From Anaerolineae bacterium (lineage in GTDB: Bacteria > Chloroflexota > Anaerolineae > Aggregatilineales > Aggregatilineaceae), in NCBI GenBank assembly GCA_018432315.1, contig JAHDLB010000027.1, positions 124,001 to 188,000 on the forward strand: 64,000 nt of DNA, written 5' to 3'. Below the pieces are notes generated by a model. That model ran no database searches and was not told the DNA's origin. It saw only the letters and a list, made by a program, of their open reading frames with translations. The position numbers were made by a program, and so were the translations under genes. This document shows, one piece after another, positions 4,718-64,000 of this stretch; position 1 is the first letter of the stretch; every line of letters begins with the position of its first letter.

Positions 4718-5554
4718 TTATTCGGACCGAAAGAAGACAGCCGCGCCATAGCCCACGACCTGGTCGTAGTCGTGGGTGACGTCGCCGGAGGTGGCATAGT
4801 CGACGATCTGGGCCGTGTCCGCGCCGAGGTCGCGGGCGGCGATCATCACGGTGGCGATCGCGCCGCGCCCGCACGCGAACCCCTCGCCTTGAGTTTCCAG
4901 GTGGAGCACGCGCACCGGGTCGAACGCCCCGACGGCGTCGAGCATGGCCCGGTCGAGCGCGTTAGCGGTGCTCTGCGGGTAAAAGTGCGAGAGGTCCGAG
5001 CTGGCGACGAGCAGCGCCTTGCGCCCGGCCAGAATATTCGCCAGCGCGTGACCGAGCATTTCGGCGGTATGCAGCGACTGGTCGATCAGCGCCAGCGGGA
5101 TCAGGGCGAAGTTGCCCAGGACGCGCTGCAAGAAGGGAAGCTCGATCTCCAGCGCGTGTTCCGCATCCCACCGGACCGGCTCGACCGGCACTGTCTCGCG
5201 CAGCGCCTCCAGCGCCGCGTGATCGACCGGGACGTCGCCCAGCGGCGTCCGGTAGGCAGCGTGGCCGGTCGTCAGGATATCCGCCTGATAGCGGTGGTGC
5301 GAGGGGCCGATCACGGCTACCGTGTCGACGTCCATGCCCTGCACCAGCTTGAACGCGTGCCCGGCAACCGGGCCGGAGTAGCGGTGCCCGGCGTGTGGCG
5401 CCAGCAGGCCGATGATCGCGCCCGGAATGGCGGGCACATCCGCCTGGGCGAGGTAATCGTCCACCGTGCTCGCCAGGTGCGCCGGGTCGCCAGGGTACCA
5501 GCGTCCGGCGATGGGAGATGGGCGAAAATCGCGCGCGGGTGTCGGGTGGGTCAT
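4718..5554 (-). CDS. amrB: AmmeMemoRadiSam system protein B (MEMO1 family)
   Basis: 278 aa. The N-terminus (R-P-S-P-I-A-G-R-W-Y-P) and the motif L-A-P-H-A-G-H-R-Y-S-G-P-V-A-G are typical of the MEMO1/DUF52 family, as are GPSHHRY and ASSDLSHFYP. The fold is related to extradiol dioxygenases, and the histidines are the expected metal ligands. The family name comes from its usual neighbours AMMECR1 and a radical SAM protein. Neither is in this window. It is co-transcribed with priA, 9 bp downstream. Its biochemical role in bacteria is unsettled. Confidence 0.9.
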   Translation of the reverse strand: MTHPTPARDFRPSPIAGRWYPGDPAHLASTVDDYLAQADVPAIPGAIIGLLAPHAGHRYSGPVAGHAFKLVQGMDVDTVAVIGPSHHRYQADILTTGHAAYRTPLGDVPVDHAALEALRETVPVEPVRWDAEHALEIELPFLQRVLGNFALIPLALIDQSLHTAEMLGHALANILAGRKALLVASSDLSHFYPQSTANALDRAMLDAVGAFDPVRVLHLETQGEGFACGRGAIATVMIAARDLGADTAQIVDYATSGDVTHDYDQVVGYGAAVFFRSE

Positions 5555-5596
5555 GGTGGGTCTTGTAAACCGTTTGTTGTGCGCTTCGTTGTGTCT

Positions 5597-5626
5597 ATTT
5601 TAACATGAGGCGTGGTATGCCGACAA
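5597..5626 (-). promoter_or_regulatory. Promoter for amrB-priA
   Basis: Minus strand TTGTCG (5626-5621), an 18-bp spacer, TAAAAT (5602-5597), about 43 bp before the amrB start. It overlaps the -35 region of the divergent hydrolase promoter, so the two directions may compete. Confidence 0.55.
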
Positions 5627-5646
5627 GCGTTCTGCCTGGGTATAAT
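5618..5646 (+). promoter_or_regulatory. Promoter for the alpha/beta hydrolase gene
   Basis: A consensus -10 TATAAT lies at 5641-5646. The best -35 at 17 bp is the weak TGCCGA (5618-5623). Transcription from about 5653 excludes the upstream in-frame ATG at 5612 and supports the start at 5684. Confidence 0.55.
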
Positions 5647-5683
5647 CTGGGGGACGGTGTCCAACAGGAAGACAGGGATCGGC

Positions 5684-6643
5684 ATGCTGCGAAAAACGTG
5701 GTGGGGATGGTGGGTGATCGCGCTGTTCGTGTTCGTGCTGCTGATCGTGCCCTATTTGCTGCCGCTGGGCGGCCCGCCGATCATCGCGCCGGCGGCGTTG
5801 ACCGACGAAAACGGCGCTTTCGCCGAGGTGGACGGCGAGACGCTGTATTACGTGCACGCGCCGGGCGGTGAGCGGGAGGTGGTGCTGCTGATTCACGGCT
5901 TTGGCGGTTCGACGGTCACCTGGCAGCAGACGATCCCGGCGCTGGCAGCGGCGGGTTATGATACGTACGCGGTAGACCTACCCGGCTTCGGCCTCAGCCA
6001 GAAAGGTTGGGATACCGACTACCGCCACGCAACCCAGGCGCGGCGGGTGATCGGCCTGATGGACCAGCTTGGCATCGACCGGGTGGTAGTGGTCGGGCAC
6101 TCGATGGGCGGCAGCGTGGCGGCTCATCTGGCGCTCAGCGCCCCGGATCGCATCAGCCGGTTGGTGCTCGTCGATGCGGCGATCCTGAACGCGGACTCGG
6201 GACCGTATTCCGTGCCGGCGTTCGCGCTGGAGGTGTCGGTGGTGCGCCGTTGGGCGCAGTTTGGGCTGCGGCGGGGCATCGATTCGTTGTTTGGCGATCT
6301 GCTTTTCGATGCGGCGTATCAGGACGACGCGATCACGCCCGCGCTGGAGGAAGGGTACCGGCGGGCGCTGCATACCCCCGGCTGGGATACCGGCTTGCTG
6401 GGCATTCTGCGCGACGCGAGGGACAATAACCTGCCCGCGCCGGTCAGCGACATCCAGGTTCCGACGCTGATCCTGTGGGGAGCGGAGGATACGTGGGTGG
6501 CGCCTGAGGACGGCGCGCGTCTGGAGAACCTGATCGATGGAGCACAGCGGGTCGTCTTTTCGGGGGTGGGCCATCTGCCGATGCACGAGGCGCCGGAGGA
6601 CTTCAACGCCGCTTTGCTCGACTTCCTGAACCCGGCTGATTGA
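5684..6643 (+). CDS. Membrane-anchored alpha/beta hydrolase
   Basis: 319 aa from ATG 5684, which follows AGGGA at a usable distance. An earlier in-frame ATG at 5612 lies upstream of the likely transcription start. Residues about 6-28 form one transmembrane anchor (WWVIALFVFVLLIVPYLLP). The hydrolase fold shows the oxyanion motif LLIHGFGGS, the nucleophile elbow GHSMGGS, a late acidic residue in ILWGAEDTWV and the catalytic His in GHLPMHEAPEDF. It resembles the broad family of esterases, lipases and C-C hydrolases. The substrate cannot be told from sequence. Confidence 0.9.
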   Translation: MLRKTWWGWWVIALFVFVLLIVPYLLPLGGPPIIAPAALTDENGAFAEVDGETLYYVHAPGGEREVVLLIHGFGGSTVTWQQTIPALAAAGYDTYAVDLPGFGLSQKGWDTDYRHATQARRVIGLMDQLGIDRVVVVGHSMGGSVAAHLALSAPDRISRLVLVDAAILNADSGPYSVPAFALEVSVVRRWAQFGLRRGIDSLFGDLLFDAAYQDDAITPALEEGYRRALHTPGWDTGLLGILRDARDNNLPAPVSDIQVPTLILWGAEDTWVAPEDGARLENLIDGAQRVVFSGVGHLPMHEAPEDFNAALLDFLNPAD

Positions 6644-6648
6644 AACAC

Positions 6649-6683
6649 AAGCCGGGGCTGCGTTCGGAACGCTCCCCGGCTTT
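6649..6683. terminator. Hairpin terminator between convergent hydrolase and groES
   Basis: AAGCCGGGG (6649-6657) pairs with CCCCGGCTT (6674-6682), and an inner GCGTT/AACGC stem extends the helix. Short T tracts flank it on both strands, so it may serve both convergent genes. Confidence 0.7.
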
Positions 6684-6703
6684 GCTGTGCGTGGCGGGCG
6701 GCT

Positions 6704-6985
6704 TTATTTGATCCGCGCCAACACGTCGTCTTCGTTCATCAGCAAGTAGGTCTTGCCTTCGTACTTGATCTCGTTGCCGGTGTACTTGGGGAACAGCACG
6801 CGGTCGCCCACCTTGAGATCGGTCATCATCTCTTCAGAGCTGCCCACAGCTTCGATGGTGCCCTGCTGCGGTTTCTCTTTGGCCGTCTCGGGCAGCAGGA
6901 CGCCGCCGGGAGACTGCGCCTCGCCTTCGATCGGCAGAACCAACACGCGAGCGCCAAGCGGTTCAATGTTGATCGTATCGGCCAT
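6704..6985 (-). CDS. groES: Co-chaperonin GroES
   Basis: 93 aa, the normal length for the Hsp10 family. It has the N-terminal beta strand (LGARVLVLPIE), the mobile-loop region SPGGVLLPETAKEKPQQGTI, the conserved VGDRVLFPKYTG and the C-terminal EDDVLARI. GroES caps GroEL during protein folding in the cytosol. A strong AAGGAG precedes the ATG. No groEL lies beside it in this window, and I see no CIRCE inverted repeat upstream. It follows the disulfide oxidoreductase gene by 68 bp. Confidence 0.97.
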   Translation of the reverse strand: MADTINIEPLGARVLVLPIEGEAQSPGGVLLPETAKEKPQQGTIEAVGSSEEMMTDLKVGDRVLFPKYTGNEIKYEGKTYLLMNEDDVLARIK

Positions 6986-7027
6986 TTATGTTTCTCCTTA
7001 CGCGTAGTGTAGATAATGTCTTTGAAA

Positions 7028-7053
7028 CCCGGTGGTTGTCTTCGTCACCAGGG
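7028..7053 (-). terminator. Possible weak terminator after the disulfide oxidoreductase gene
   Basis: CCCGGTG and CACCAGGG pair with a single bulged A around a short loop, directly after the stop codon at 7054. Only a three-base T tract follows on the minus strand, so read-through into groES is likely. Confidence 0.35.
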
Positions 7054-7710
7054 CTAGGACGGCTGCCCGGCTGCGGCTTTGAGCTTCTCCAGCAGCATCG
7101 ATTCCGGCACTGCACCTTCGATGTACGTGTCCTCGTTGATCACGGTGCGCGGCACGCCCATGACATTGTAGCGGTTGCCCAGGTGGGGGAACTCGGTCAC
7201 TTCCACCATATCCGCCGTCACTTTGTCCGACGCCATCGCCAGGCGGTGGGCCAGGACGACCGCGTTGGGGCAGTAAGGGCAGGTGGGCGTCACGAAAACC
7301 TGCAGATGCAGCGGTTCGGTGAGCGTGTCCAGGAAGGCCAGCGTCGACTTGTCGAGGTCGTTCGCGCCGGTGCCCATGGCGATGATCGCTTCGAGCAGCG
7401 AGGTGAACTCGTAGCCCGAGGGAATGCCGTAGAACCGGATGCCGTAATCCTGGTCGTTAGCGCCCATCACCGCGATGGCGGGGATCTTATCGACCTGCAG
7501 CGACTCGGCCAGCGCGCTGTCGTCGACGAAGTCGTGCACGTGCAGAGTCACCTGGTCGGACAGCTCCGCGACTTCTTCCGCAATCTGCCGGGTTTCTTTG
7601 CAGTAACCGCATTCATATTCCTGGGTGAACAGGTGCAGATTGACCGGCGAGGTCACCACGGCCAGCAGGTCGCGCACCTGGTTTTGTGTGTCCTGATCCA
7701 TCAATGGCAT
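7054..7710 (-). CDS. Protein disulfide oxidoreductase with two thioredoxin/glutaredoxin folds
   Basis: 218 aa with two redox motifs: CGYC at 34-37 and CPYC at 144-147, each at the N-terminus of a thioredoxin-like unit. The cis-Pro motifs (KIPAIAV and GVPRTVI) are also present. This two-domain layout matches the PDO / glutaredoxin-like family of thermophiles and anaerobes, which reduces or forms cytosolic disulfides. AAGGA lies about 10 bp before the first ATG, and a second ATG is three codons later. It is grouped with groES and osmC, which suggests a redox and protein-quality role. Confidence 0.9.
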   Translation of the reverse strand: MPLMDQDTQNQVRDLLAVVTSPVNLHLFTQEYECGYCKETRQIAEEVAELSDQVTLHVHDFVDDSALAESLQVDKIPAIAVMGANDQDYGIRFYGIPSGYEFTSLLEAIIAMGTGANDLDKSTLAFLDTLTEPLHLQVFVTPTCPYCPNAVVLAHRLAMASDKVTADMVEVTEFPHLGNRYNVMGVPRTVINEDTYIEGAVPESMLLEKLKAAAGQPS

Positions 7711-7832
7711 GAGGGTCTATCCTTTATGTGATTGACGTGAACCGTTACACCCATTTAGATGCAGTTTTCTGCTGCTGGTTGCGCCGTCCGCAAGACATCA
7801 TACCGTGAAACAAGCCGTGTTTCTAACAGAAA

Positions 7833-7862
7833 TTCGTTAGAGGTCGCGCCTGCCGGTATAAT
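7833..7862 (+). promoter_or_regulatory. Promoter for the osmC-like gene
   Basis: A -10 TATAAT lies at 7857-7862. The -35 at 18 bp (TTCGTT, 7833-7838) is weak. The start codon at 7899 lies about 37 bp further on. Confidence 0.5.
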
Positions 7863-7898
7863 GCGAACTGGCATCGCATGGTCTGGCAAAGGATGAGT

Positions 7899-8324
7899 AT
7901 GGGTACGGTAACCTGGTTACAAAAGCTGCAATTCGTCGCCACGGACAGCAGCAAACACTCGGTTGTGGTATCGTCACAGGATGAAGCCAACGGCGTGGGC
8001 ATGAAGCCCAGCGAATTACTGCTGCTCTCGCTGGCGTCCTGCACGGCGTATGACGTGGCGAACATCCTCCAGAAGAAGCGCAAGCGGCTGACCGAGCTGC
8101 GCGTCGACGTACAAGGCGAGCAGCAAAGCGAAGCGCCGTGGGCATTCCGCAAAATTCACCTGCATTACGTGGTGGACGGCGATGGCATCTCCGAGCGCGA
8201 CGTTGCCAAGGCGATTCACCTGTCGCACGAGAAATACTGCTCGGTGTCGGCTACGCTGCGCCCGGTTGTGGAGCTTACGCACGATTACGAGATCGTCAGT
8301 GATTCGGATGGCGGGGCAGGGTAA
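7899..8324 (+). CDS. OsmC family peroxiredoxin-like protein
   Basis: 141 aa from ATG 7899. The AAAGGA at 7888-7893 suits this start better than the earlier in-frame ATGs, and MGTVTWLQKLQFVATD is the usual family N-terminus. The two conserved thiols are Cys48 (LASCTAYDV) and Cys114 (EKYCSVSATL). These reduce organic hydroperoxides in Ohr/OsmC enzymes. The sequence is closer to the YhfA/OsmC-like branch than to Ohr. A small membrane-protein gene follows 46 bp downstream and may be co-transcribed. Confidence 0.92.
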   Translation: MGTVTWLQKLQFVATDSSKHSVVVSSQDEANGVGMKPSELLLLSLASCTAYDVANILQKKRKRLTELRVDVQGEQQSEAPWAFRKIHLHYVVDGDGISERDVAKAIHLSHEKYCSVSATLRPVVELTHDYEIVSDSDGGAG

Positions 8325-8370
8325 ACCGGCGTGAGCACGACCGCCCGGTGTCCAGTAAAGGATAGGGCTC

Positions 8371-8610
8371 GTGGATTTCCTCGAAGGCTTGTTTGGTCGT
8401 GATCGGGGCCGCGACAACGTCAGCGGTTTCATCCGGTCGTTTTCCCGGTGGATAATCGGGTGTGGCTGCTTGCTGGTGCTGGTGATCGTGGGCGCGATCG
8501 CGGCGTTGGTGGGCGGCATCATCAGCTTCGGCGAATCGGCGGTGACGGTGATCATCGTGGTCGTGATGATCATTGTTGCGATCGCGTCGCTGATCCGCAG
8601 CAACCTGTAA
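8371..8610 (+). CDS. Small two-helix membrane protein
   Basis: 79 aa, GTG start after AAAGGATAGG. Two adjacent hydrophobic segments (about 27-50 and 55-75) follow a charged N-terminus (FGRDRGRDN). No family is recognised. It is in the same direction as the osmC-like gene. Confidence 0.6.
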   Translation: MDFLEGLFGRDRGRDNVSGFIRSFSRWIIGCGCLLVLVIVGAIAALVGGIISFGESAVTVIIVVVMIIVAIASLIRSNL

Positions 8611-8630
8611 GCCGCCGGGCCGGGCGCCGG

Positions 8631-8864
8631 TCAGGTATCGCGCTCGCCGCCGCGCGGCAGGGTGGTGGCCTCCAGCATATCCAGGATCGCCTGCCCGGTG
8701 ATGAAGACGCGGCGCAGCCCTGGCGGCTGGCTGGCCCGGAGCTGGCCCGACGCCAGCAGCCGCTTGACGGTGCTCAGGCTCACGTCGAGGACCTCGGCGA
8801 CTTCGGCCCGCGAGTAGACGCGAGTCGGGTGAATCGGCGGGCGCTCGGTGTGGTGCGGAGCCAT
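8631..8864 (-). CDS. Small excisionase-type helix-turn-helix protein
   Basis: 77 aa. Residues about 17-65 form a MerR/excisionase winged helix (YSRAEVAEVLDVSLSTVKRLLASGQL, wing with LRRVFITG). It has no other domain. It is the last gene of the envelope operon, 19 bp after the LysM-M23 gene. The HTH is like that of small DNA-binding proteins annotated as excisionase family, but there is no integrase or attachment site here, so a regulatory role is more likely than excision. Confidence 0.75.
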   Translation of the reverse strand: MAPHHTERPPIHPTRVYSRAEVAEVLDVSLSTVKRLLASGQLRASQPPGLRRVFITGQAILDMLEATTLPRGGERDT

Positions 8865-8883
8865 CGCTGGTCGGCGCTCCGGG

Positions 8884-55891: not shown

Positions 55892-56557
55892 ATGCCTGAG
55901 ACTAACCTGATTACCCTGACCGATCCGCGCTCGCCCGCGTCCGAAGCGTACCGGGCGCTGCGCACCAACCTGATGTTCTACAGCCTGGACGAACCGCTGC
56001 GTTCGCTGGCGGTGACGTCCCCGGCGGCGCACGAGGGCAAGAGCACGGTCGTCGCCAACCTGGCGGTGACGCTGGCCCAGGGCGGCAACCGGACGATCCT
56101 GGTCGACTGCGATCTGCGCAGGCCGGGGCAGCATACGCTGTGGGGGCTGCCCAACGATCGCGGCCTGACGACGATGCTGCTGGACAGTGAGGCCATGCAG
56201 AGTCCGGCGCTGCAAAGCGTGGGCGTGGACAATCTACACGTGCTGACCAGCGGCCCGCTGCCGCCCAACCCGGCGGACGTGATCGGCTCGCGGCGCATGG
56301 ACGACATGCTCGACGCGCTCAAAGCCAAAGCGGATTACGTCGTCTTCGATTCGCCGCCGATCCTGGCGGTGACAGACGCGGCCCTGCTGGGGCACAAGGT
56401 GGACGGGATCGTGCTCGTGCTGCGGGCGGGATCGTCCCGGCGCGATCACGCGGCGCGCGCCAAGGAAGAGCTTGAGCGCGTCAAGGTGCCGATTGTGGGC
56501 ACGGTCCTGGTCAACGCGCCGCGCGATGTTGCGGTGGGCAATTATTACACGGCGTGA
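55892..56557 (+). CDS. CpsD/CapB-type bacterial tyrosine kinase
   Basis: 221 aa. N-terminal SEAYRALRTNLMF motif, Walker A variant in TSPAAHEGKSTV at about 42-53, Walker A' ILVDCDLRRP at 69-78, and Walker B YVVFDSPPIL. The C-terminal tyrosine cluster is reduced to one YY pair near the end (GNYYTA). It works with the Wzz-like partner and controls polysaccharide assembly by cyclic autophosphorylation. The short Tyr tail may limit regulation. Confidence 0.9.
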   Translation: MPETNLITLTDPRSPASEAYRALRTNLMFYSLDEPLRSLAVTSPAAHEGKSTVVANLAVTLAQGGNRTILVDCDLRRPGQHTLWGLPNDRGLTTMLLDSEAMQSPALQSVGVDNLHVLTSGPLPPNPADVIGSRRMDDMLDALKAKADYVVFDSPPILAVTDAALLGHKVDGIVLVLRAGSSRRDHAARAKEELERVKVPIVGTVLVNAPRDVAVGNYYTA

Positions 56558-56581
56558 AGCGGAGTAGGGGGTAAGCGACGA

Positions 56582-57652
56582 GTGAAGGGCTTGATTCTGA
56601 GCGGCGGCAAGGGCACGCGCCTGTACCCGCTGACGTATACTCGCGCCAAGCAGCTCATCCCGGTGGCGAACAAGCCGGTGCTGTTCCGCGTGATCGAGGC
56701 GATCCGCGACGCGGGGATCGACGAAATCGGTATCGTGATCGGCGACACCGGGCCGGAGATCCGGCAGGCGGTGGGCGACGGCGCGCAGTTCGGCGTGGCG
56801 GTGACGTACATCCCGCAGGAAGCCCCGCTGGGGCTGGCGCACGCCGTCAAGATCTCGCGCGAGTTCCTGGGCGATGACCGCTTCGTGATGTTCCTGGGCG
56901 ACAACGTGCTGCAGGGCGGCATCAGCCCGCTGATCGCGGACTTCGCCCATCACGACGACTGGAACAGCCAGATCGTGCTGACCGCCGTCGAGCACCCGGA
57001 GCAGTACGGCGTGGCCCAGCTCAACGCCGAGGGGCGCATCGCCCGCCTGATCGAGAAGCCGAAGGACCCGCCGAGCAACCTCGCGCTGGTCGGCATTTAC
57101 ATGTTCGACCACCACATCTTCGAGGCCACCGACGAGATCGCGCCCTCGTTTCGCGGCGAGCTGGAGATCACCGACGCGATCCAGTGGCTGGTCGATCACG
57201 GCTACAGCGTCTACCCGCACATTCATCGCGGCTGGTGGATCGACACCGGGCGCCCGGACGACATGCTGACCGCCAACAGCCTCGTGCTCGAAGAACTCAC
57301 GCCGGCGGTCGCCGGCTACGTCGATCGCGATTCCGAGGTGGACACGCGCGTGACGATCGAGCAGGGCGCGGAGATCATCAACAGCGTGGTGCGCGGCCCG
57401 GCGATCATCGGGCGCAACACGCGGATCGTGAACAGCTACGTCGGCCCGTTCACCAGCATCTACCACGACGTGCTGATCGAGAACAGCGAGATCGAGCGCA
57501 GCATCGTGCTGGAGCACAGCGCCATCCGCGACATCCCCGCGCGCATTCAGGACAGCCTGATCGGTCGCCACGCGGCGGTGGACATCAGCGCCCTGCGGCC
57601 ACGCGCGATCAAGATGCAGCTTGGCGACCACAGCCACCTGGAATTGTTGTAA
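56582..57652 (+). CDS. rmlA: Glucose-1-phosphate thymidylyltransferase, long RmlA
   Basis: 356 aa, GTG start. LILSGGKGTRLYPLTYTRAKQLIPVANKPVLF is the dTTP-binding signature. FLGDNVLQGG and RGWWIDTGRPDDMLTANSLVLEE follow. The C-terminal part is a left-handed beta-helix (VVRGPAIIGRNTRI). It makes dTDP-glucose from glucose-1-phosphate and dTTP. rmlB lies two genes downstream, which supports the assignment. A second long RmlA-like gene is at 41854-42933. Confidence 0.93.
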   Translation: MKGLILSGGKGTRLYPLTYTRAKQLIPVANKPVLFRVIEAIRDAGIDEIGIVIGDTGPEIRQAVGDGAQFGVAVTYIPQEAPLGLAHAVKISREFLGDDRFVMFLGDNVLQGGISPLIADFAHHDDWNSQIVLTAVEHPEQYGVAQLNAEGRIARLIEKPKDPPSNLALVGIYMFDHHIFEATDEIAPSFRGELEITDAIQWLVDHGYSVYPHIHRGWWIDTGRPDDMLTANSLVLEELTPAVAGYVDRDSEVDTRVTIEQGAEIINSVVRGPAIIGRNTRIVNSYVGPFTSIYHDVLIENSEIERSIVLEHSAIRDIPARIQDSLIGRHAAVDISALRPRAIKMQLGDHSHLELL

Positions 57653-57662
57653 GGAACGCAGG

Positions 57663-58508
57663 ATGCGAGATCACCCCACGATCCGGCTGATGGTGGCCGA
57701 CCTGGACGGCACGCTGTTGAACTCGGAGCACGCGATCACGCCCATGACCGAAGACGCGGTCCGGCAGGCGATGGCGCGCGGCGTGATGTTCACCGTTGCC
57801 ACCGGCAAGACCTACCCCTCGACGACCGAGTTGATCCAGCGGCTGGGGATCACGCTGCCCGTCATTTGCAGCAACGGCGTGCTCGTTCACGCGCCGGATG
57901 GAACCATCCTCAAGCGCACCCCGATCCGCCGGGAATACGCGCTCGAAGCGATGCGGCTGGCCGACGAGGCAGGCATGGTGACGGTCATCTATTCCGGGGC
58001 GAAGCTGGTCTGCCGCGTGTACGACCACAACCTGGCCGAATTGGTCGAGCACGGCGAGCCGGAGCCGGTGCTGGTCCAGGATTTGATCGGCGCCGTGGAG
58101 ACAGACATCGAGCCGGACAAGATCATCTTCATGAACGGCGACGACCTGGACGGTGTGATCCGGTTTCAGGCGCTGCTCGAGGAGCAGTTCGCCGGGCGGG
58201 CCCAGGCGATGCGGTCCGGGCTGGATTCGCTCGTCGAGCTGATCCCGCTGGGAGTCAGCAAGGGCACCGCGCTGGACACCATTCTGGATGCCGCCGGGGT
58301 GACCGCCGCCGAGACGATGTGCTTTGGCGACAACTGCAACGATCTGGACATGATCCGCCGCGCGGGGATCGGCGTGGCGATGGCAAATGCGCCGGCGGAT
58401 GTCCGCGAGGGGGCGAACTACGTGGCCCGCTCGAACGACGACGACGGAGTCGGGCACGCCATCCACAAGTTTGTGTTGAAGGACGCGCGCGAGGTAAGGA
58501 GAGCGTGA
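57663..58508 (+). CDS. Cof-type HAD-superfamily hydrolase
   Basis: 281 aa from ATG 57663, 10 bp after the rmlA stop, with AAGGAA upstream. HAD motif I is VADLDGTLLNS with the nucleophile Asp, and motif IV is CFGDNCNDLDMI. The C2-type cap domain lies between. Members dephosphorylate sugar phosphates or nucleotides. In this context a sugar-phosphate substrate in the polysaccharide pathway is likely, but the exact substrate is open. The stop codon overlaps the rmlB start (TGATG). Confidence 0.9.
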   Translation: MRDHPTIRLMVADLDGTLLNSEHAITPMTEDAVRQAMARGVMFTVATGKTYPSTTELIQRLGITLPVICSNGVLVHAPDGTILKRTPIRREYALEAMRLADEAGMVTVIYSGAKLVCRVYDHNLAELVEHGEPEPVLVQDLIGAVETDIEPDKIIFMNGDDLDGVIRFQALLEEQFAGRAQAMRSGLDSLVELIPLGVSKGTALDTILDAAGVTAAETMCFGDNCNDLDMIRRAGIGVAMANAPADVREGANYVARSNDDDGVGHAIHKFVLKDAREVRRA

Positions 58509-59539
58509 TGAAGAACATTCTGGTGACCGGTGGGGCGGGGTTCATTGGCAGCGCGTTCGTGCGCCGCATGGTCGAGAAATATCCGGACTACAACATCATC
58601 GTGCTGGACAAGCTGACCTATGCGGGCAATCTCGACAACCTGCTGCCCGTGCACGACGCGCCGAATTACACCTTCGAGCGCGGCGATATCGCCCACCGGG
58701 AGACGGTGCAGCGCGTGCTGGAGCACTACGCGATCGACGCGATCGTGAACTTCGCCGCCGAGTCGCACGTGGACCGCTCGATCCTCGACCCGGACGCGTT
58801 CATCCATACCGACGTGGTGGGGTTGTACATCCTGCTCGACGTGGCCCGCAAGCTGGGCATCCCGCGCCTGCACCACGTGAGCACCGACGAGGTCTACGGC
58901 TCGATTCCGGAGGGCTTCTTCCGCGAAGGCGATCCGCTGGAGCCGAACAGCCCCTATGCGGCGAGCAAGGCGGGCGGCGAATTGATGCTGCGCGCCTATC
59001 ACGTCACTTATGGGATGCACACGACCGTCACGCGGGGCAGCAACACGTTCGGCCCGTACCAGTACCCGGAGAAGATCGCGCCGTTCTTCATCACGGAGGC
59101 GATCGACGACCGGCCCCTGCCGCTGTACGGCGACGGGATGCAGGTGCGCGACTGGCTGTACGTGGACGATCACTGCGACGCGATCGATGCCGTGCTGCAC
59201 CGGGGCGCGCCCGGCGAGATTTACAACGTGGGCGGCGAGCACGAGATGCACAACATCGACGTCACGCGCTTTATCCTGCGCGCGCTGGGCAAGCCGGAGA
59301 GCCTGATCCGCTACGTGGAGGACCGGCCCGGCCACGACCGCCGCTACGCGCTCACCAACGACAAGATCCGCGCCGAGCTGGGATGGGATGCGGCTCACAA
59401 TTTCGAGGACGCGATGGCCGCCACCGTGCGCTGGTACCGGGAAAACGAGTGGTGGTGGCGCAAGATCAAAACCGGCGAATACCTGGAATTCTACAAGGCC
59501 CAGTACGGCGCGCGGCTGGCCGGGGCGTCCGGCGCGTGA
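58508..59539 (+). CDS. rmlB: dTDP-glucose 4,6-dehydratase
   Basis: 343 aa, AAGGAG upstream. Short-chain dehydrogenase fold: NAD-binding GGAGFIGS at 8-15, STDEVYG at 125-131 and the catalytic YAASK with Tyr150 and Lys154. It converts dTDP-glucose to dTDP-4-keto-6-deoxyglucose. RmlC and RmlD, needed for dTDP-rhamnose, are not in the window, so the end sugar may be another deoxysugar or the genes lie elsewhere. Last gene of the cluster, followed by a strong terminator. Confidence 0.96.
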   Translation: MKNILVTGGAGFIGSAFVRRMVEKYPDYNIIVLDKLTYAGNLDNLLPVHDAPNYTFERGDIAHRETVQRVLEHYAIDAIVNFAAESHVDRSILDPDAFIHTDVVGLYILLDVARKLGIPRLHHVSTDEVYGSIPEGFFREGDPLEPNSPYAASKAGGELMLRAYHVTYGMHTTVTRGSNTFGPYQYPEKIAPFFITEAIDDRPLPLYGDGMQVRDWLYVDDHCDAIDAVLHRGAPGEIYNVGGEHEMHNIDVTRFILRALGKPESLIRYVEDRPGHDRRYALTNDKIRAELGWDAAHNFEDAMAATVRWYRENEWWWRKIKTGEYLEFYKAQYGARLAGASGA

Positions 59540-59594: not shown

Positions 59595-60713
59595 TCGCTG
59601 TGAAACCTGGATGATCAGCTCGCTGTTGTCGCGGATGGCGAGGCCGAGTATCGCGTCGTTAGGATAGAACGCGATGCCTGGAAACAACCCGATGACGAAT
59701 CCATCGTGCGACGAGCGCAGCAGGCCGTCGTCCGGGCCGGTGGGACGCCCGTAGATGTCCACCATGCGCGCCACCGGATCGCCCGCCTGCACCCGGTCGC
59801 CGGGCTGCACCAGGTGCTGGACGATGCACGCCTGGGGCACGCGCGGGTGCGTGGTGCGCCGCACCGGGTAGCCCAGGTCCAGCACCGGGACGCCGGTGAT
59901 CGTCTCGCGCGGGCCGGGTAGCATCCCCGCCCAGCGCATCACGTTCCGGATGCCGGTTACCACGGCGCGCACGTTGACCACGTTGACCATGCGCTGCCCG
60001 CCGATCTCGACCGTCACGGCGGGGATGCGCGCGGTGTTGAGCGCCGCGCCGCTCACCGAGCGGTGCAGGTTCATCTTCAGGTATTCGTCCGACACGTATT
60101 CGTTGACCACGGTCAGGCCCAGGGCGTCGAGCATGGCGCCGAGCGTCTGCTGGAGCTTCTGGGCCGCCGCTTTTTCGCGCGGGGCGCGGTAGATCACCGG
60201 GTCGCGAAAGGCGAACGGGATCGCGCTGATGCCGTAGTCGTGCAGGTCGATCAGGTAATCCGCCGTCGCGCGGATGTGCTCGAACAGGCGGGCATAGGCG
60301 ATCTCCAGCGCGGACGGGTGATGAGCGTTGCTCGCGCCGTCGAAATCCAGGCCGGGGAACAGCCGGTTGGGGTCTTTGCCGCGCAGGTAGTACGGACTGC
60401 GCTCGCCGGTGCGCAGGCCGGCAGGGCTGAGCGTGGGGATGGCGACCACGGTGCCCGAAAGCTGTTCGACGAGCTCCGGCGCCAGCAGTTGGTGGATGGC
60501 GGCCAGTCCGTCGTATTCGCCCCCGTGAATGTTCGCCGTCAGCCAGAGCACGGGACCGGGGCGGGTTCCCTGGGCGATGATCACCGGGAAGGCGTCCATT
60601 TCGCCGGTGGGCAGTCTGACCGCTTCGAACGTCCCGTAGGTGAGCTGTCCGGGCCGGCTGTGCGCGGTGCCGATCCGGATGGCGTCGGGGGCGGCGCGGC
60701 GTTGGCGGGTCAT
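59592..60713 (-). CDS. Succinylglutamate desuccinylase/aspartoacylase-type metallohydrolase
   Basis: 373 aa from ATG 60713. The M14-like zinc motif is NIHGGEYDG (His and Glu). The second His lies in LIDLHDYG. The remaining core includes NRLFPG, VTVEIGG and a C-terminal beta-barrel-like domain (GDPVARMVDIYGRP). The family cleaves amide-linked acyl groups from amino acids or related compounds. The substrate is not known. The start overlaps the previous stop as ATGA, coupling it to the GAF protein. Confidence 0.85.
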   Translation of the reverse strand: MTRQRRAAPDAIRIGTAHSRPGQLTYGTFEAVRLPTGEMDAFPVIIAQGTRPGPVLWLTANIHGGEYDGLAAIHQLLAPELVEQLSGTVVAIPTLSPAGLRTGERSPYYLRGKDPNRLFPGLDFDGASNAHHPSALEIAYARLFEHIRATADYLIDLHDYGISAIPFAFRDPVIYRAPREKAAAQKLQQTLGAMLDALGLTVVNEYVSDEYLKMNLHRSVSGAALNTARIPAVTVEIGGQRMVNVVNVRAVVTGIRNVMRWAGMLPGPRETITGVPVLDLGYPVRRTTHPRVPQACIVQHLVQPGDRVQAGDPVARMVDIYGRPTGPDDGLLRSSHDGFVIGLFPGIAFYPNDAILGLAIRDNSELIIQVSQR

Positions 60714-61564
60714 GAGCGCGCCTGCCGGGCGAGCGCGTGGGCCAGTTGGGCGCTGACAAGTTCGAGCATCATCACGTTCTGCTGGGTGATCGAGTTCGGC
60801 TGTTGGCGGCAGGCCAGGATCGCGCCGAAGCGCATGGTCGTGCCGACCGGCACGCACACGCCGGACCGGAACCGTCCCTGGCGGATGAACGGGTGGGTTG
60901 GCTCATCGCCGGAGGCGACGATGCGGCTCTGGCCGTTCTGCGCGACCCAGCCCACCAGCGAGGTGTGGATATCCTGCTGTTGGGGGGCGCTGACGGTCAG
61001 GGCTTCCGGGCCAACCTGCGCGCCGAGGCGCAGCGTGGGCGGGGTGGTCGGCATCAGGCTGAAGAAGGCGACGTAATCGTATCCCAGCTCCTGGATCGCT
61101 TCGACGGCGGCCTGCTGCCGGGCCTGGCCCGGCCCGGCGCGGCGCAGCGACTTGGCGAAGGCGCGCACCGGCGGCAGGGCGTCCGCGCGCAGCGTCTCCA
61201 GGCTGCGTTCCTCGGCCAGCCGCTTGATGCGGCGGAGCAGGTCGTCGTCCTCGAACGGCTCGACCGATACCTCGTCCGCCTGGCCCGGCAGGCTGAAATC
61301 GGCGCTCTCGTCGACCAGGACGATCAGCAGCCGGGGATAGCTCTGGCGCAGTTCCCTCACCAGCGCGTAGACATCGCCCAGGCCGCTGTCGATCACGAGG
61401 ACGCCGGTTTGCTTCTGCGAATCGGCGAGGATGGCGCGGGCGTCGGCCTCGGACGTGACGACCGTGAGCCGGATCTGCAGATCCGCCCCGAGATTCTCCA
61501 GGTACCGGTGGCGTGCGGCAACCGGCACAGCCGCCAGCACGTGAATCAGAGAATCGTGTGCCAT
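60710..61564 (-). CDS. Receiver-like / GAF-domain protein
   Basis: 284 aa. The N-terminal region (about 1-115) resembles a degenerate response-regulator fold (VLVIDSGLGDVYALVRELRQSYPRLLIVLVDE). A GAF domain follows at about 150-280 (ELGYDYVAFFSLM, then GVCVPVGTTMRFGAILA). There is no output domain. It may sense a small molecule and regulate the coupled metallohydrolase or other partners. It has its own promoter (61603-61631). Confidence 0.75.
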   Translation of the reverse strand: MAHDSLIHVLAAVPVAARHRYLENLGADLQIRLTVVTSEADARAILADSQKQTGVLVIDSGLGDVYALVRELRQSYPRLLIVLVDESADFSLPGQADEVSVEPFEDDDLLRRIKRLAEERSLETLRADALPPVRAFAKSLRRAGPGQARQQAAVEAIQELGYDYVAFFSLMPTTPPTLRLGAQVGPEALTVSAPQQQDIHTSLVGWVAQNGQSRIVASGDEPTHPFIRQGRFRSGVCVPVGTTMRFGAILACRQQPNSITQQNVMMLELVSAQLAHALARQARS

Positions 61565-61654: not shown

Positions 61655-63400
61655 TCAGTCGTCCGGGATCGCGCCGGACAGTTCCTGAGACGTGCGCTTG
61701 CCGCCGTGGTCGGGGCGCGAGGGGACGCTCTTCCCGCCGCGCAGCAGCAGCGCGATCCCGAAGCCCAGGCCGCTGATGGCCGCGCCGATGAATTGCAGCT
61801 CTTTGATCACGTCGACGGCGGCGGACAACGTCGCGTTGATCGCCGATTCGTCCGTCGTTTCGATCGTGTCCGGCTCGGGGTAATCGGTGTAGTTGTCGAT
61901 GTGCACGTCGAACCGGTCCAGCGCGAAGATGGTCAGCGACGAGATCGCCAGCGTCATGCCGACCAGCCGCAGGATCAGCACCAGGGCCGACGCCACGCCG
62001 CGATCCTCTTCCGGCACGTCGTTGAGCACGGCGGTGCCGATCGGCGAGATCGTCAGGCCCAGCCCCACGCCGATGATCGCCATCTGGCTGCCCATCAGCC
62101 AGTACGGCGTGTCCGTGTCCCAGAACAGCCCGGTGAGCAGGAAGCCGCCGGCGGCCAGGGCCAGCCCCAGCGTCGTGGGACGGCGATACCCGTGGCGGTC
62201 GCTGAGCCAGCCGCCGGGTACTGCGGCCAGGGCGATCGGGATCGTCAGGCCGGACAGCAGCACTCCGGCGATGTAGGCGGCGTTCTGGATCTCGTCGCTC
62301 GTCGGCGTCTCGACGCGGAAGTTCACGAGTAAGGGGGCGCTCACCAGGCCAATCGCCAGGCAGAAGCCGACCATCAGGTTGGTCACCGAGGCGGTCGCAA
62401 AGTTCCGGCTGCGAAACAACTTGAGCGGGATCAGCGGCGAATGGATGCGCGATTCGACCAGCAGGAACCCGATGAACGCCAGGGCCGCGACGATCAGGAA
62501 CAGGGTGCTGGCGGTTGCCGTCGAGCTTTGCAGGTCTTCGAAGCTGCTGGCGGTGGTCGCCGTTTCGGGGCTGGTGGTGCCCACGCCCAGGTTAAGCCCG
62601 ATCAGCGCGATGGAGATCAACACCATGCCCCAGATGTCGAAGCGCCCGGTGGTGTGCGGGCGGTCGATGTCGCGCAGCACCCACCACGCCCCGAGCAGCG
62701 CCACGAACGTGATCGGAATGTTGAGGATGAACAGCGTCTCCCACGAGGGCTTGGCGATGGTGATCCCCAGGTTGGCGAAGGCATTGACGAAGTGGTGCCC
62801 CTGCTCGCCGAAGAAGCGGACCATCACGCCGCCGTACAGGTGGCCGAGCACCCATCCGAGCGTATCGATCGCGCCGATGAACCCGATCGGCTGGGCGCGC
62901 CGGGCGGGCGGGAACAGATCGCCGGCCAGCGCGATCGTCACCGGGACCATCGCGCCCGCGCCCAGCGCCTGCACGATGCGCCCGGCGATGACCAGGTACA
63001 GGTAGCGCTCCTCCAGCCGGGGCGGGCGCTGGTCGAGCACGGTGTTGTAGAACCGCGCGATCCACCCGTTGATCAGCGAGCTGTCGTAGGCGGTGACCAT
63101 GTACGACCCGAACATGAACACGATCAGGCAACTGATGTACACGGCGCGCCGCCCCAACAGGTCCGACAGCCGCCCGGCGAAGGTCATGCTGATCGCGTAG
63201 GCGAGCAGATAGCCGGTGACGGCCCACGATGCCTGGTCGAGGTATTCCTTGACCGGCAGCTCGAGACTGGTGATCACCTCCGGCAACACCGCCGAGATGA
63301 TCGTCAGGTCCAGGGCGCCGATGAAAACCGGCAGGCTGACGATCGCCAACACGAACCATGGCGACGTCCGCCATGCCGGAACGCTGGACAGCCGGGTCAT
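61655..63400 (-). CDS. MFS exporter of the DHA2 / P55 type
   Basis: 581 aa from ATG 63400. About 14 transmembrane helices, with the early motif FVLAIVSLPVFIGALDLTIISAVLPEV and the loop 2-3 signature GRLSDLLGRRAVYI. A long exterior loop near the end (FDVHIDNYTDYPEPDTIETTDESAIN) sits before the last helix. The gene follows an LprG-type lipoprotein gene by 4 bp. In mycobacteria the homologous pair (LprG and P55/Rv1410c) exports triacylglycerides and affects drug resistance. The arrangement suggests a similar lipid or drug exporter. Confidence 0.9.
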   Translation of the reverse strand: MTRLSSVPAWRTSPWFVLAIVSLPVFIGALDLTIISAVLPEVITSLELPVKEYLDQASWAVTGYLLAYAISMTFAGRLSDLLGRRAVYISCLIVFMFGSYMVTAYDSSLINGWIARFYNTVLDQRPPRLEERYLYLVIAGRIVQALGAGAMVPVTIALAGDLFPPARRAQPIGFIGAIDTLGWVLGHLYGGVMVRFFGEQGHHFVNAFANLGITIAKPSWETLFILNIPITFVALLGAWWVLRDIDRPHTTGRFDIWGMVLISIALIGLNLGVGTTSPETATTASSFEDLQSSTATASTLFLIVAALAFIGFLLVESRIHSPLIPLKLFRSRNFATASVTNLMVGFCLAIGLVSAPLLVNFRVETPTSDEIQNAAYIAGVLLSGLTIPIALAAVPGGWLSDRHGYRRPTTLGLALAAGGFLLTGLFWDTDTPYWLMGSQMAIIGVGLGLTISPIGTAVLNDVPEEDRGVASALVLILRLVGMTLAISSLTIFALDRFDVHIDNYTDYPEPDTIETTDESAINATLSAAVDVIKELQFIGAAISGLGFGIALLLRGGKSVPSRPDHGGKRTSQELSGAIPDD

Positions 63401-63404
63401 TGGA

Positions 63405-64000
63405 TCAGTTCTCTTCCGTGACCGGTGTGGAGATTTCAACCGGTTCGTTATAGTTCATGATGTTGATGGTCCAGGTGGTCGGTTCCTCGTCCTGGACCTG
63501 CGGCGGCAGCGGCTCGCGCAGCACAACCTGCTCGACCTGGCGCTCGTCGGCCAGCACGTAGATCTCGATATCCAGCTCGCCGGTCTGCGTGTTGATGAGG
63601 CCGAAGGTGAACGCGTTGACGTCGGTGGCCTGGACCTTGCCCGTCAGGTGATACACATCCAGCCCGTCGAGGTCTTTCTTGCCGTCCATCGTCAGGCCGG
63701 ACACGTTGCGCAGCGCGTGGGGAATCCCGGTATCGGTGCTGAGCAACGACGAGGGGCTGAAGCCTGCGATCAGTTCCTGGTTCAGCCAGCGGCTGCCAGT
63801 CAGCAGGTTCATTTGCAAATACTGCTCGCGGCCAATCGCGATCAGCTCGGCGGCGGCTGTGACGTCGCCGACGCTGAATTCGATGCTGGCCTGCAAGCTG
63901 TCCGGCGCCGCGAAGACACCGGCGGCGTACTTGAAGGCGAGCGCGGTTTCTTCCGGCAGGCCCAGGCCATCGATCGCGATGATGACCGGGTAGCCGCTCA
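63405..64000 (-). CDS. LppX/LprAFG-type lipoprotein, 5' end cut by window edge
   Basis: The frame is open from 63405 to the window end, so the gene starts beyond 64000 and no signal peptide can be seen. The 198 visible residues show the LppX_LprAFG pattern: LQASIEFSVGDVTAAAELIAI, LDGLDVYHLTGKVQATDV, then a strand-rich end with TTWTINIMNYNEPVEISTPV. In LprG the fold forms a large hydrophobic pocket for acylated lipids. An in-frame TTG at 63896 is not a likely start because the homology extends upstream. It lies just before the MFS exporter gene, and the two probably function together. Confidence 0.75.
   Translation of the reverse strand, partial: SGYPVIIAIDGLGLPEETALAFKYAAGVFAAPDSLQASIEFSVGDVTAAAELIAIGREQYLQMNLLTGSRWLNQELIAGFSPSSLLSTDTGIPHALRNVSGLTMDGKKDLDGLDVYHLTGKVQATDVNAFTFGLINTQTGELDIEIYVLADERQVEQVVLREPLPPQVQDEEPTTWTINIMNYNEPVEISTPVTEEN

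Follow-up and report, generated by a model that had tools for sequence, protein, structure and literature searches.

A Lipoprotein-MFS Exporter Pair of Putative LprG-Rv1410 Type in an Anaerolineae Bacterium, a Sister Variant with a Shifted Ion-Lock Carboxylate

Two adjacent genes, one for a lipoprotein and one for a major facilitator superfamily (MFS) exporter, lie at the end of a 64,000-nucleotide stretch of contig JAHDLB010000027.1 from an Anaerolineae bacterium of the phylum Chloroflexota. This whole stretch is referred to below as the window. Our analysis indicates that the pair is very probably a lipid extractor and carrier machine of the LprG-Rv1410 type, which is a statement about the kind of machine rather than about a particular cargo. 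The assignment draws on gene order, a lipobox, predicted folds, kinship, the conserved linkage of the two genes, and a conserved carboxylate and arginine. With function and cargo assigned by analogy, the pair appears to be a sister variant of the mycobacterial lipid exporter. LprG-Rv1410 is treated as a machine of the mycobacterial envelope in the relevant passages of PMC4709180 and PMC8829022. Within the open-access literature, we found no paper joining LprG with Chloroflexi or Chloroflexota, none joining LppX lipoproteins with both Chloroflexi and Actinobacteria, and none that takes up LprG homologues, actinobacteria, operon, and triacylglyceride together.

The original prediction, made from the letters of the window, described an LppX/LprAFG-like lipoprotein frame ending 4 bp before an MFS gene, and this layout was confirmed. 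Both genes are read from the minus strand, where the lipoprotein frame stops with TGA at 63407-63405 (window coordinates), and the four bases TCCA separate this stop from the MFS ATG at 63400. This ATG was taken as the MFS start; the TTG at 63439 given in the open-frame listing falls inside the lipoprotein gene. The lipoprotein gene is cut by the window edge, and its 5′ end, 178 bp beyond 64000, was read from the same contig, yielding a gene of 257 codons with its ATG at the equivalent of 64178. Because the next gene downstream (60710-61564, GAF domains) starts 90 bp past the MFS gene, and the upstream frame stops about 150 bp before the lipoprotein gene, the lipoprotein and MFS genes look like a two-gene unit, as judged from spacing. 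A promoter scan returned one weak sigma-70-like site 5′ of the lipoprotein gene, versus 0.5 expected. The lipoprotein is the sole PF07161 gene found across the source genome, which measures 5.69 Mb and is 99% complete.

The lipoprotein matches Pfam family PF07161 (LppX_LprAFG; cut-off 24 bits) with 48.7 bits for the part inside the window and 56.5 bits for the longer frame. A lipobox, LIAGC with Cys24, is present beyond position 64000, where the original prediction had proposed to look for it; it was read from the sequence itself. The lipobox Cys is invariant in 29/29 aligned lipoproteins, many of whose start codons were themselves picked by the lipobox. In a single-sequence search the best solved relative is LprG (1e-4), and a profile of 29 lipoproteins finds LprG at 8e-31, LprF at 2.6e-22, and LppX at 1.6e-10. 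The profile alignments of both proteins use 29 of 54 pairs, the 54 being 53 linked Chloroflexota pairs plus that of the window. The AlphaFold2 model of the lipoprotein is LprG-like, as had been predicted: it aligns with LprG at Z 22.8 over 201 residues (2.6 Å, 20% identity over structurally aligned residues), with LprF at Z 22.1, with the LprG-triacylglyceride complex 4ZRA at Z 21.6, and with LppX at Z 16.6. The scores of LprG and LprF differ by less than 1 Z unit, in effect a tie, and the best fold outside the LppX_LprAFG family reaches Z 11.0. Foldseek also ranks LprG first. By counting in a pairwise alignment, LprG V91 corresponds to I99 and the lid residue Y130 to F140 (residue roles as given in a passage of PMC4709180). 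LppX, LprF, and LprA of mycobacteria have the PF07161 family and the fold in common with the window lipoprotein. A passage of PMC3388012 names LprG, LprF, LprA, and LppX as PF07161 proteins and is silent on an exporter partner. The partner of LppX is an MmpL transporter (PMC4709180, in part), unlike the MFS protein of the window.

The second protein matches PF07690 (1.7e-44), and its closest solved relative is 8PNL, the structure of the Rv1410 homologue MHAS2168. By phmmer, EfpA comes next after 8PNL, at 5.7e-12 (Table 1 gives the values for 8PNL). A profile of 29 MFS sequences gives 8PNL 398 bits, EmrB 168, and EfpA 165. The MFS model (mean predicted local distance difference test score, pLDDT, 88.8) aligns with 8PNL at Z 43.4 over 468 residues (2.2 Å, 31% identity over structurally aligned residues); EfpA, NorC, and QacA follow at Z of about 35, the next best after 8PNL being 35.3. 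Foldseek also places 8PNL first. EfpA, EmrB, QacA, and NorC share the 14-helix MFS fold with the window exporter. The DHA2 drug exporters EfpA, EmrB, and QacA were considered as closest kin and set aside, as 8PNL is nearer by phmmer, by profile, in both structure comparisons, and in the tree.

The model contains 14 long helices, in agreement with the number expected from the sequence; their assignment to the membrane is by analogy with 8PNL. The long late exterior loop that had been noticed corresponds to extensions of transmembrane helices (TM) 11 and 12, modeled at residues 464-504 and 513-550. These helices run far beyond membrane-span length, as in 8PNL, and the extension stretch comprises 41 residues in the alignment compared with 48 in 8PNL. 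The TM11/TM12 extensions of 8PNL are held to pass lipid to LprG, according to a passage of PMC10576003. Two other segments are enlarged relative to 8PNL. The TM3-4 segment has 31 residues versus 5 (26 more), and the TM5-6 segment has 24 versus 4 (20 more). MFS topology would place both on the outer face, the docking side for the carrier. Overall, the window pair and LprG-Rv1410c (P27-P55)/MHAS2168 have in common a lipoprotein followed by an MFS gene in one unit, the LprG fold and lipobox, and a DHA2 fold with linker helices and long TM11-TM12 extensions, the last of these in the predicted model. MHAS2168 D35 in TM1, R118 and Q121 in TM4, N184 in TM6, and D83 in motif A are matched by D31, R141, Q144, N227, and D80, and a TM11 Arg and a TM5 carboxylate are shared as well. 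D31, R141, Q144, and D80 are also frequent in unlinked DHA2-like proteins and do not discriminate.

The TM5 carboxylate does discriminate. In 8PNL, E157 of TM5 and R426 of TM11 form a salt bridge that, in the account of PMC10576003, occurs in 17 mycobacterial homologues and in 0/46 other characterised MFS proteins. Mutation of this ion lock abolished Rv1410 function, and MHAS2168 R426A failed (same source). The window MFS keeps the lock arginine as R478 and has D179, followed by T-x-G-W, as its carboxylate instead of a Glu at the column of residue 180. The lock was surveyed in 244 loci with an MFS protein of at least 150 bits, 181 after removal of near-copies. Among these are 136 lipoprotein-linked MFS proteins, two of which are cut at the lock columns; all 134 readable ones are acidic at window position 179 or 180. 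The same holds for 147/147 proteins scoring at least 390 bits (128 of them linked) and for 0/26 unlinked proteins below 390 bits, a group that includes the next three DHA2-like proteins of the window's own genome and comprises those returned by profile or pattern searches at 150 bits or more. EmrB and EfpA are non-acidic at these columns. The lock Arg is kept in 140/142 readable high scorers (one Q, one K). Arg is frequent among unlinked low scorers too, which leaves the carboxylate as the one discriminating residue. The lock types of the 147 high scorers, written as residues 179-180, are D-T or D-M (78), Q-E (20), other x-E (39), E-T (9), and D-D (1). In Actinomycetota, which were not used for profile building and whose proteins are also counted in the 181-locus survey, 26/149 genomes have a match at 1e-80 or better. 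The 13 transporters of at least 396 bits are all acidic, and 10 of them are linked; among the 13 at or below 287 bits, none is acidic and none is linked.

Descent was examined in a midpoint-rooted tree of 133 rows, from which seven rows had been dropped beforehand (one mis-extracted paralogue and six cut or split frames). All 101 linked rows, 8PNL, 15 unlinked rows with the carboxylate, and three without it form one clade with a Shimodaira-Hasegawa-like approximate likelihood ratio (SH-aLRT) support of 100. Outside this clade are EmrB, EfpA, two paralogues from the window's own genome, and nine other rows. The deepest forks of the tree are weak. One half of the clade, of E180 type, holds 8PNL (support 97) and also the D-D row, L145; the D179/E179 half holds the window (support 81, below threshold). 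The nearest kin of the window MFS are linked rows of its own family, and 8PNL has as its sisters six Q-E-type proteins from Chloroflexota (support 100). Acidimicrobiia fall inside the D179/E179 half, and Gaiellales, other Thermoleophilia, and a Gemmatimonadetes metagenome-assembled genome (L225) fall in the E180 half. The tree indicates that the D179/E180 split is old, with some transfer between phyla likely. The pair is widespread in Chloroflexota and is shared with Actinomycetota outside the mycobacteria. To our knowledge, Acidimicrobiia, Gaiellales, and Thermoleophilia make no mycolates. Because the same pair occurs in many non-mycobacterial bacteria, this machine probably predates the coat of mycobacteria.

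The two genes stay together across these genomes. Within the same family and order, an MFS frame adjoins the lipoprotein in 26/29 loci, counted inside the sequence stretch examined at each. An MFS gene lies downstream on the same strand in 53/60 Chloroflexota loci, hand-picked for spread across the families of the phylum. In these 53 loci the spacing is at most 45 bp in 48, a 4-bp overlap in 12, and 642 bp in one, with start codons partly picked by nearness. Nine of 11 further loci, chosen for odd open frames or from one family and kept outside the 53/60 count, also have an MFS gene. In 51/80 loci from named genomes of several phyla, a lipoprotein gene lies no more than 1.2 kb away in the same orientation, and 10/13 high-scoring transporters of Actinomycetota adjoin one. 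The conserved pairing that the original prediction had proposed to search for was thus found across Chloroflexota and beyond. PF07161 itself is present in 33/41 genomes of the relatives search, 46/248 of the class, and 122/301 of the phylum (own genome included). Pairwise distances of the lipoprotein and MFS proteins are correlated (r 0.83 for 101 pairs, near-copies included), and 0/2000 permutations reached as high a value. This co-divergence points to joint inheritance, not to contact. Chance adjacency was considered and is ruled out, because linkage is kept in 26/29 same-order and 53/60 phylum loci and one locus is a fusion.

In that fusion (L107:1370-4036:-, genome G018 of the same order), which is among the seven non-standard of the 60 loci, both proteins are in one 889-codon frame. 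Its order is lipobox, PF07161 domain, two hydrophobic segments, and MFS; inspection by eye revealed no good start codon inside it. A one-frame fusion is therefore evidence that the lipoprotein and the MFS protein act together. The two extra helices would invert the MFS part, in conflict with MFS topology, and the fusion comes from one draft genome. The whole linker was found in 1/154 genomes of the order, and linker-like hairpins match in 40/154 (G018 included), with one to several per genome. One such hairpin in an own-order genome is at G000:C9:19415-19588:-; these hairpins occur within other proteins. Elsewhere, the MFS gene of L006:2-1661:- (G028) occupies two separate frames, owing to either a frameshift or a fault in the assembly.

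Several loci depart from the usual arrangement. In Thermoflexus (L248:3985-8458:-) the MFS gene is followed by a 571-codon frame with a masked run and then by the lipoprotein. The strongest PF07161 match seen (2e-61), in Nocardia salmonicida (L244:4073-4888:-), has no MFS neighbor in the 6.5-kb stretch examined. Exporter frames of Ktedonobacteria (L193:5656-8232, L194, L196, L201) have 813-859 codons, about 300 above a plain DHA2 protein; PF07161 is unmatched in 3/4 of these exporter-bearing genomes and weak in one. A protein of about 380 residues lies just 3′ of the Ktedonobacteria exporter and is conserved by eye, with no Pfam family above cut-off in the two scanned. The same-clade transporters of L170:3226-5361 and L175:3148-5277 have no lipoprotein neighbor and are preceded by an InhA-like MAM domain protein; L176 has a frame of similar size and place.

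These observations allow a mechanism to be proposed, modeled on passages of PMC10576003 and PMC4709180, in which lipid cargo, proton coupling, and handover are carried over from the mycobacterial system. One unit would take a strongly apolar, multi-acyl lipid from the cytoplasmic membrane and pass it to an external carrier tethered to that membrane. The MFS protein would act as a lipid extractor of Rv1410 type, presumably proton-coupled, whose central cavity the lipid would enter laterally out of the membrane core. The pair of TM5 carboxylate and TM11 arginine, D179 and R478 by alignment, may then close the cavity floor and lift the cargo outward. The long TM11/TM12 extensions would lead the lipid to the carrier's pocket. 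This carrier, the LprG-like lipoprotein, would be anchored in the outer leaflet via lipidated Cys24.

A number of observations weigh against this assignment. The Glu position of Rv1410 is T180 in the window MFS, and the Asp is one residue earlier; with no Glu at the E157 position, the protein is therefore best described as a sister variant and not a member of the mycobacterial Rv1410 subfamily. In MHAS2168, E157Q led to a complete loss of growth only when vancomycin was increased (PMC10576003), and therefore a carboxylate is not absolutely required in that protein. Because the profile derives from lipoprotein-linked sequences, bit score, linkage, and lock residue depend in part on one another. 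Three proteins with neither carboxylate nor lipoprotein (L216, L219, L221) are at the base of the same clade as 8PNL and the linked rows. No lipoprotein lies beside 19/147 high-scoring transporters within the stretch examined; of 15 genomes with unlinked transporters, 10 have PF07161 elsewhere (one weak) and five have none. Most DHA2 relatives carry drug-pump annotations, our literature searches returned no lipid binding, transport, expression, or phenotype for a Chloroflexota member, and the mycomembrane, which is where the route ends in mycobacteria, is probably missing here. The fold matches, kinship with 8PNL, and linkage nonetheless support the proposed LprG-P55-like carrier and exporter pair, with a lipid role suggested by analogy.

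A narrower form of the lipid-exporter assignment, with overlapping odds, is that triacylglyceride is what the pair exports, in just the way known from mycobacteria. We regard this version as unlikely. WS/DGAT enzymes are the usual bacterial triacylglyceride and wax-ester synthase family. None is matched in the window's own genome, at 99% completeness, and another enzyme could still make triacylglyceride. WS/DGAT is found in 31/301 Chloroflexota genomes, namely 21/122 with PF07161 versus 10/179 without (same phylum draw settings). Genomes with the Q-E lock, the type of 8PNL and its six sisters, favor the narrower version, since 5/6 hold WS/DGAT; the other lock types, at 1/22, do not, and clade and type are confounded in this association. 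The count covers the 28 of 54 pairs (53 plus the window) whose genomes are in the phylum draw, with the fusion genome G018 untyped. The overall architecture is conserved, and LprG binds triacylglyceride and triacylated glycolipids (PMC4709180, in part), which also favors this version. An open-access search on wax esters or triacylglycerol in Chloroflexus returned nothing of relevance, as judged by title.

A different possibility is that the MFS gene encodes a DHA2 multidrug exporter, with the lipoprotein as a sealing or stabilizing helper, so that lipids are not the main cargo. In the profile and fold comparisons, the runners-up are EmrB, EfpA, QacA, and NorC, and a drug pump was the first description of P55, as a passage of PMC8829022 recounts. 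The same source attributes the mycobacterial drug phenotypes to envelope permeability. 8PNL is ahead of these exporters by 230 bits and 8 Z units. A carboxylate absent from the aligned EmrB and EfpA is present in the linked proteins, and the partner is folded like a lipid-binding protein. We know of no LprG-like partner for EfpA, EmrB, QacA, or NorC. On balance a drug pump is improbable. A LolA-like role for the lipoprotein, in which it would carry lipoproteins instead of free lipid, is highly improbable: LolA, LolB, and RseB entries come next after LprG in the fold list (Z at most 11.0), but LprG is 12 Z units higher, the lipoprotein is itself lipobox-anchored, no Omp85 match marks an outer membrane to serve, and the partner is an MFS protein and not LolCDE. 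LolA-LolCDE is alike in having an inner-membrane extractor that feeds a periplasmic carrier of related fold, and unlike in its ABC transporter, lipoprotein cargo, and diderm cells (see also PMC10576003). As best descriptions of the pair, an ordinary DHA2 drug pump and a LolA carrier are both outweighed by the 8PNL and LprG scores.

Within the lipid-exporter assignment, the destination of the cargo appears to differ from that in mycobacteria. Omp85 has no match in the window's own genome, whereas 7/14 control genomes match. In contrast with LprG-Rv1410 of mycobacteria, the window genome therefore combines the pair with neither an Omp85 nor a WS/DGAT match, which makes triacylglyceride delivery to a mycomembrane unlikely. 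The cargo is probably not WS/DGAT-made triacylglyceride, and the goal probably not a mycomembrane. That this bacterium has no mycolate envelope, as the original prediction put it, is judged from its lineage. That the cargo may differ, as originally suggested, is favored by these two negative searches together with the shifted ion lock. Our guess is a glycolipid, triacylated or similar, destined for the cell surface or an outer layer. The nature of that layer is debated. The identity of the outer layer is described as unclear in a Chloroflexota member, and some members look diderm (PMC13319060, 2026, in part). BAM and lipopolysaccharide genes are missing in Chloroflexota, and a "neoderm" outer layer has been seen by cryo-tomography (same source). 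A passage of PMC8871954 calls the Chloroflexota envelope question controversial. As a speculative extension that we would put forward with little confidence, the pair might feed the neoderm layer, as an apolar-lipid export machine predating the mycomembrane, with the D179-type branch moving a lipid other than triacylglyceride.

The coordinates of the pair are collected in Table 1. Two neighboring frames upstream of the pair (L002:3329-5206:- and 5222-8878:-) have a methionine-synthase-type look by eye. On the plus strand at 55892-59539 of the window, frames resemble surface-polysaccharide genes, again by eye: tyrosine-kinase-like, sugar nucleotidyltransferase, HAD phosphatase, and dTDP-glucose dehydratase frames.

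Table 1. Features of the lipoprotein-exporter pair, in window coordinates
Feature	Position	Strand	Evidence
LprG-like lipoprotein, C-terminal part	63405..64000	-	PF07161 1.1e-12; whole gene = L002:2406-3179:-; model mean pLDDT 92.1, LprG Z 22.8
DHA2-type MFS exporter, Rv1410 (P55)-like, 581 aa	61655..63400	-	8PNL 4e-35 by phmmer, 5.2e-118 by profile, Z 43.4
D179 and T180 codons, TM5, putative ion-lock carboxylate site	62861..62866	-	Alignments; 8PNL has E at the 180 column
R478 codon, TM11, counterpart of MHAS2168 ion-lock R426	61967..61969	-	Alignments
TM11-TM12 periplasmic extension (predicted), about residues 490-528	61817..61933	-	Model helices; counterpart of 8PNL helical extension
Enlarged TM3-TM4 segment, about residues 103-133, helix 108-120, absent from 8PNL	63002..63094	-	Alignment and model
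Enlarged TM5-TM6 segment, about residues 196-219, absent from 8PNL	62744..62815	-	Alignment

The occurrence of the pair in Chloroflexota, Acidimicrobiia, Gaiellales, and Thermoleophilia suggests that its original task was not the sealing of a mycomembrane. A carboxylate at position 179 or 180 together with Arg 478 provides a signature for such transporters, of which the carboxylate separated linked from unlinked low-scoring transporters in the 181-locus set. In the shift to D179, nature has provided a "moved residue" test of the ion lock. For Chloroflexota, the pair would give a genetic handle on whether their layered envelope contains exported lipid.

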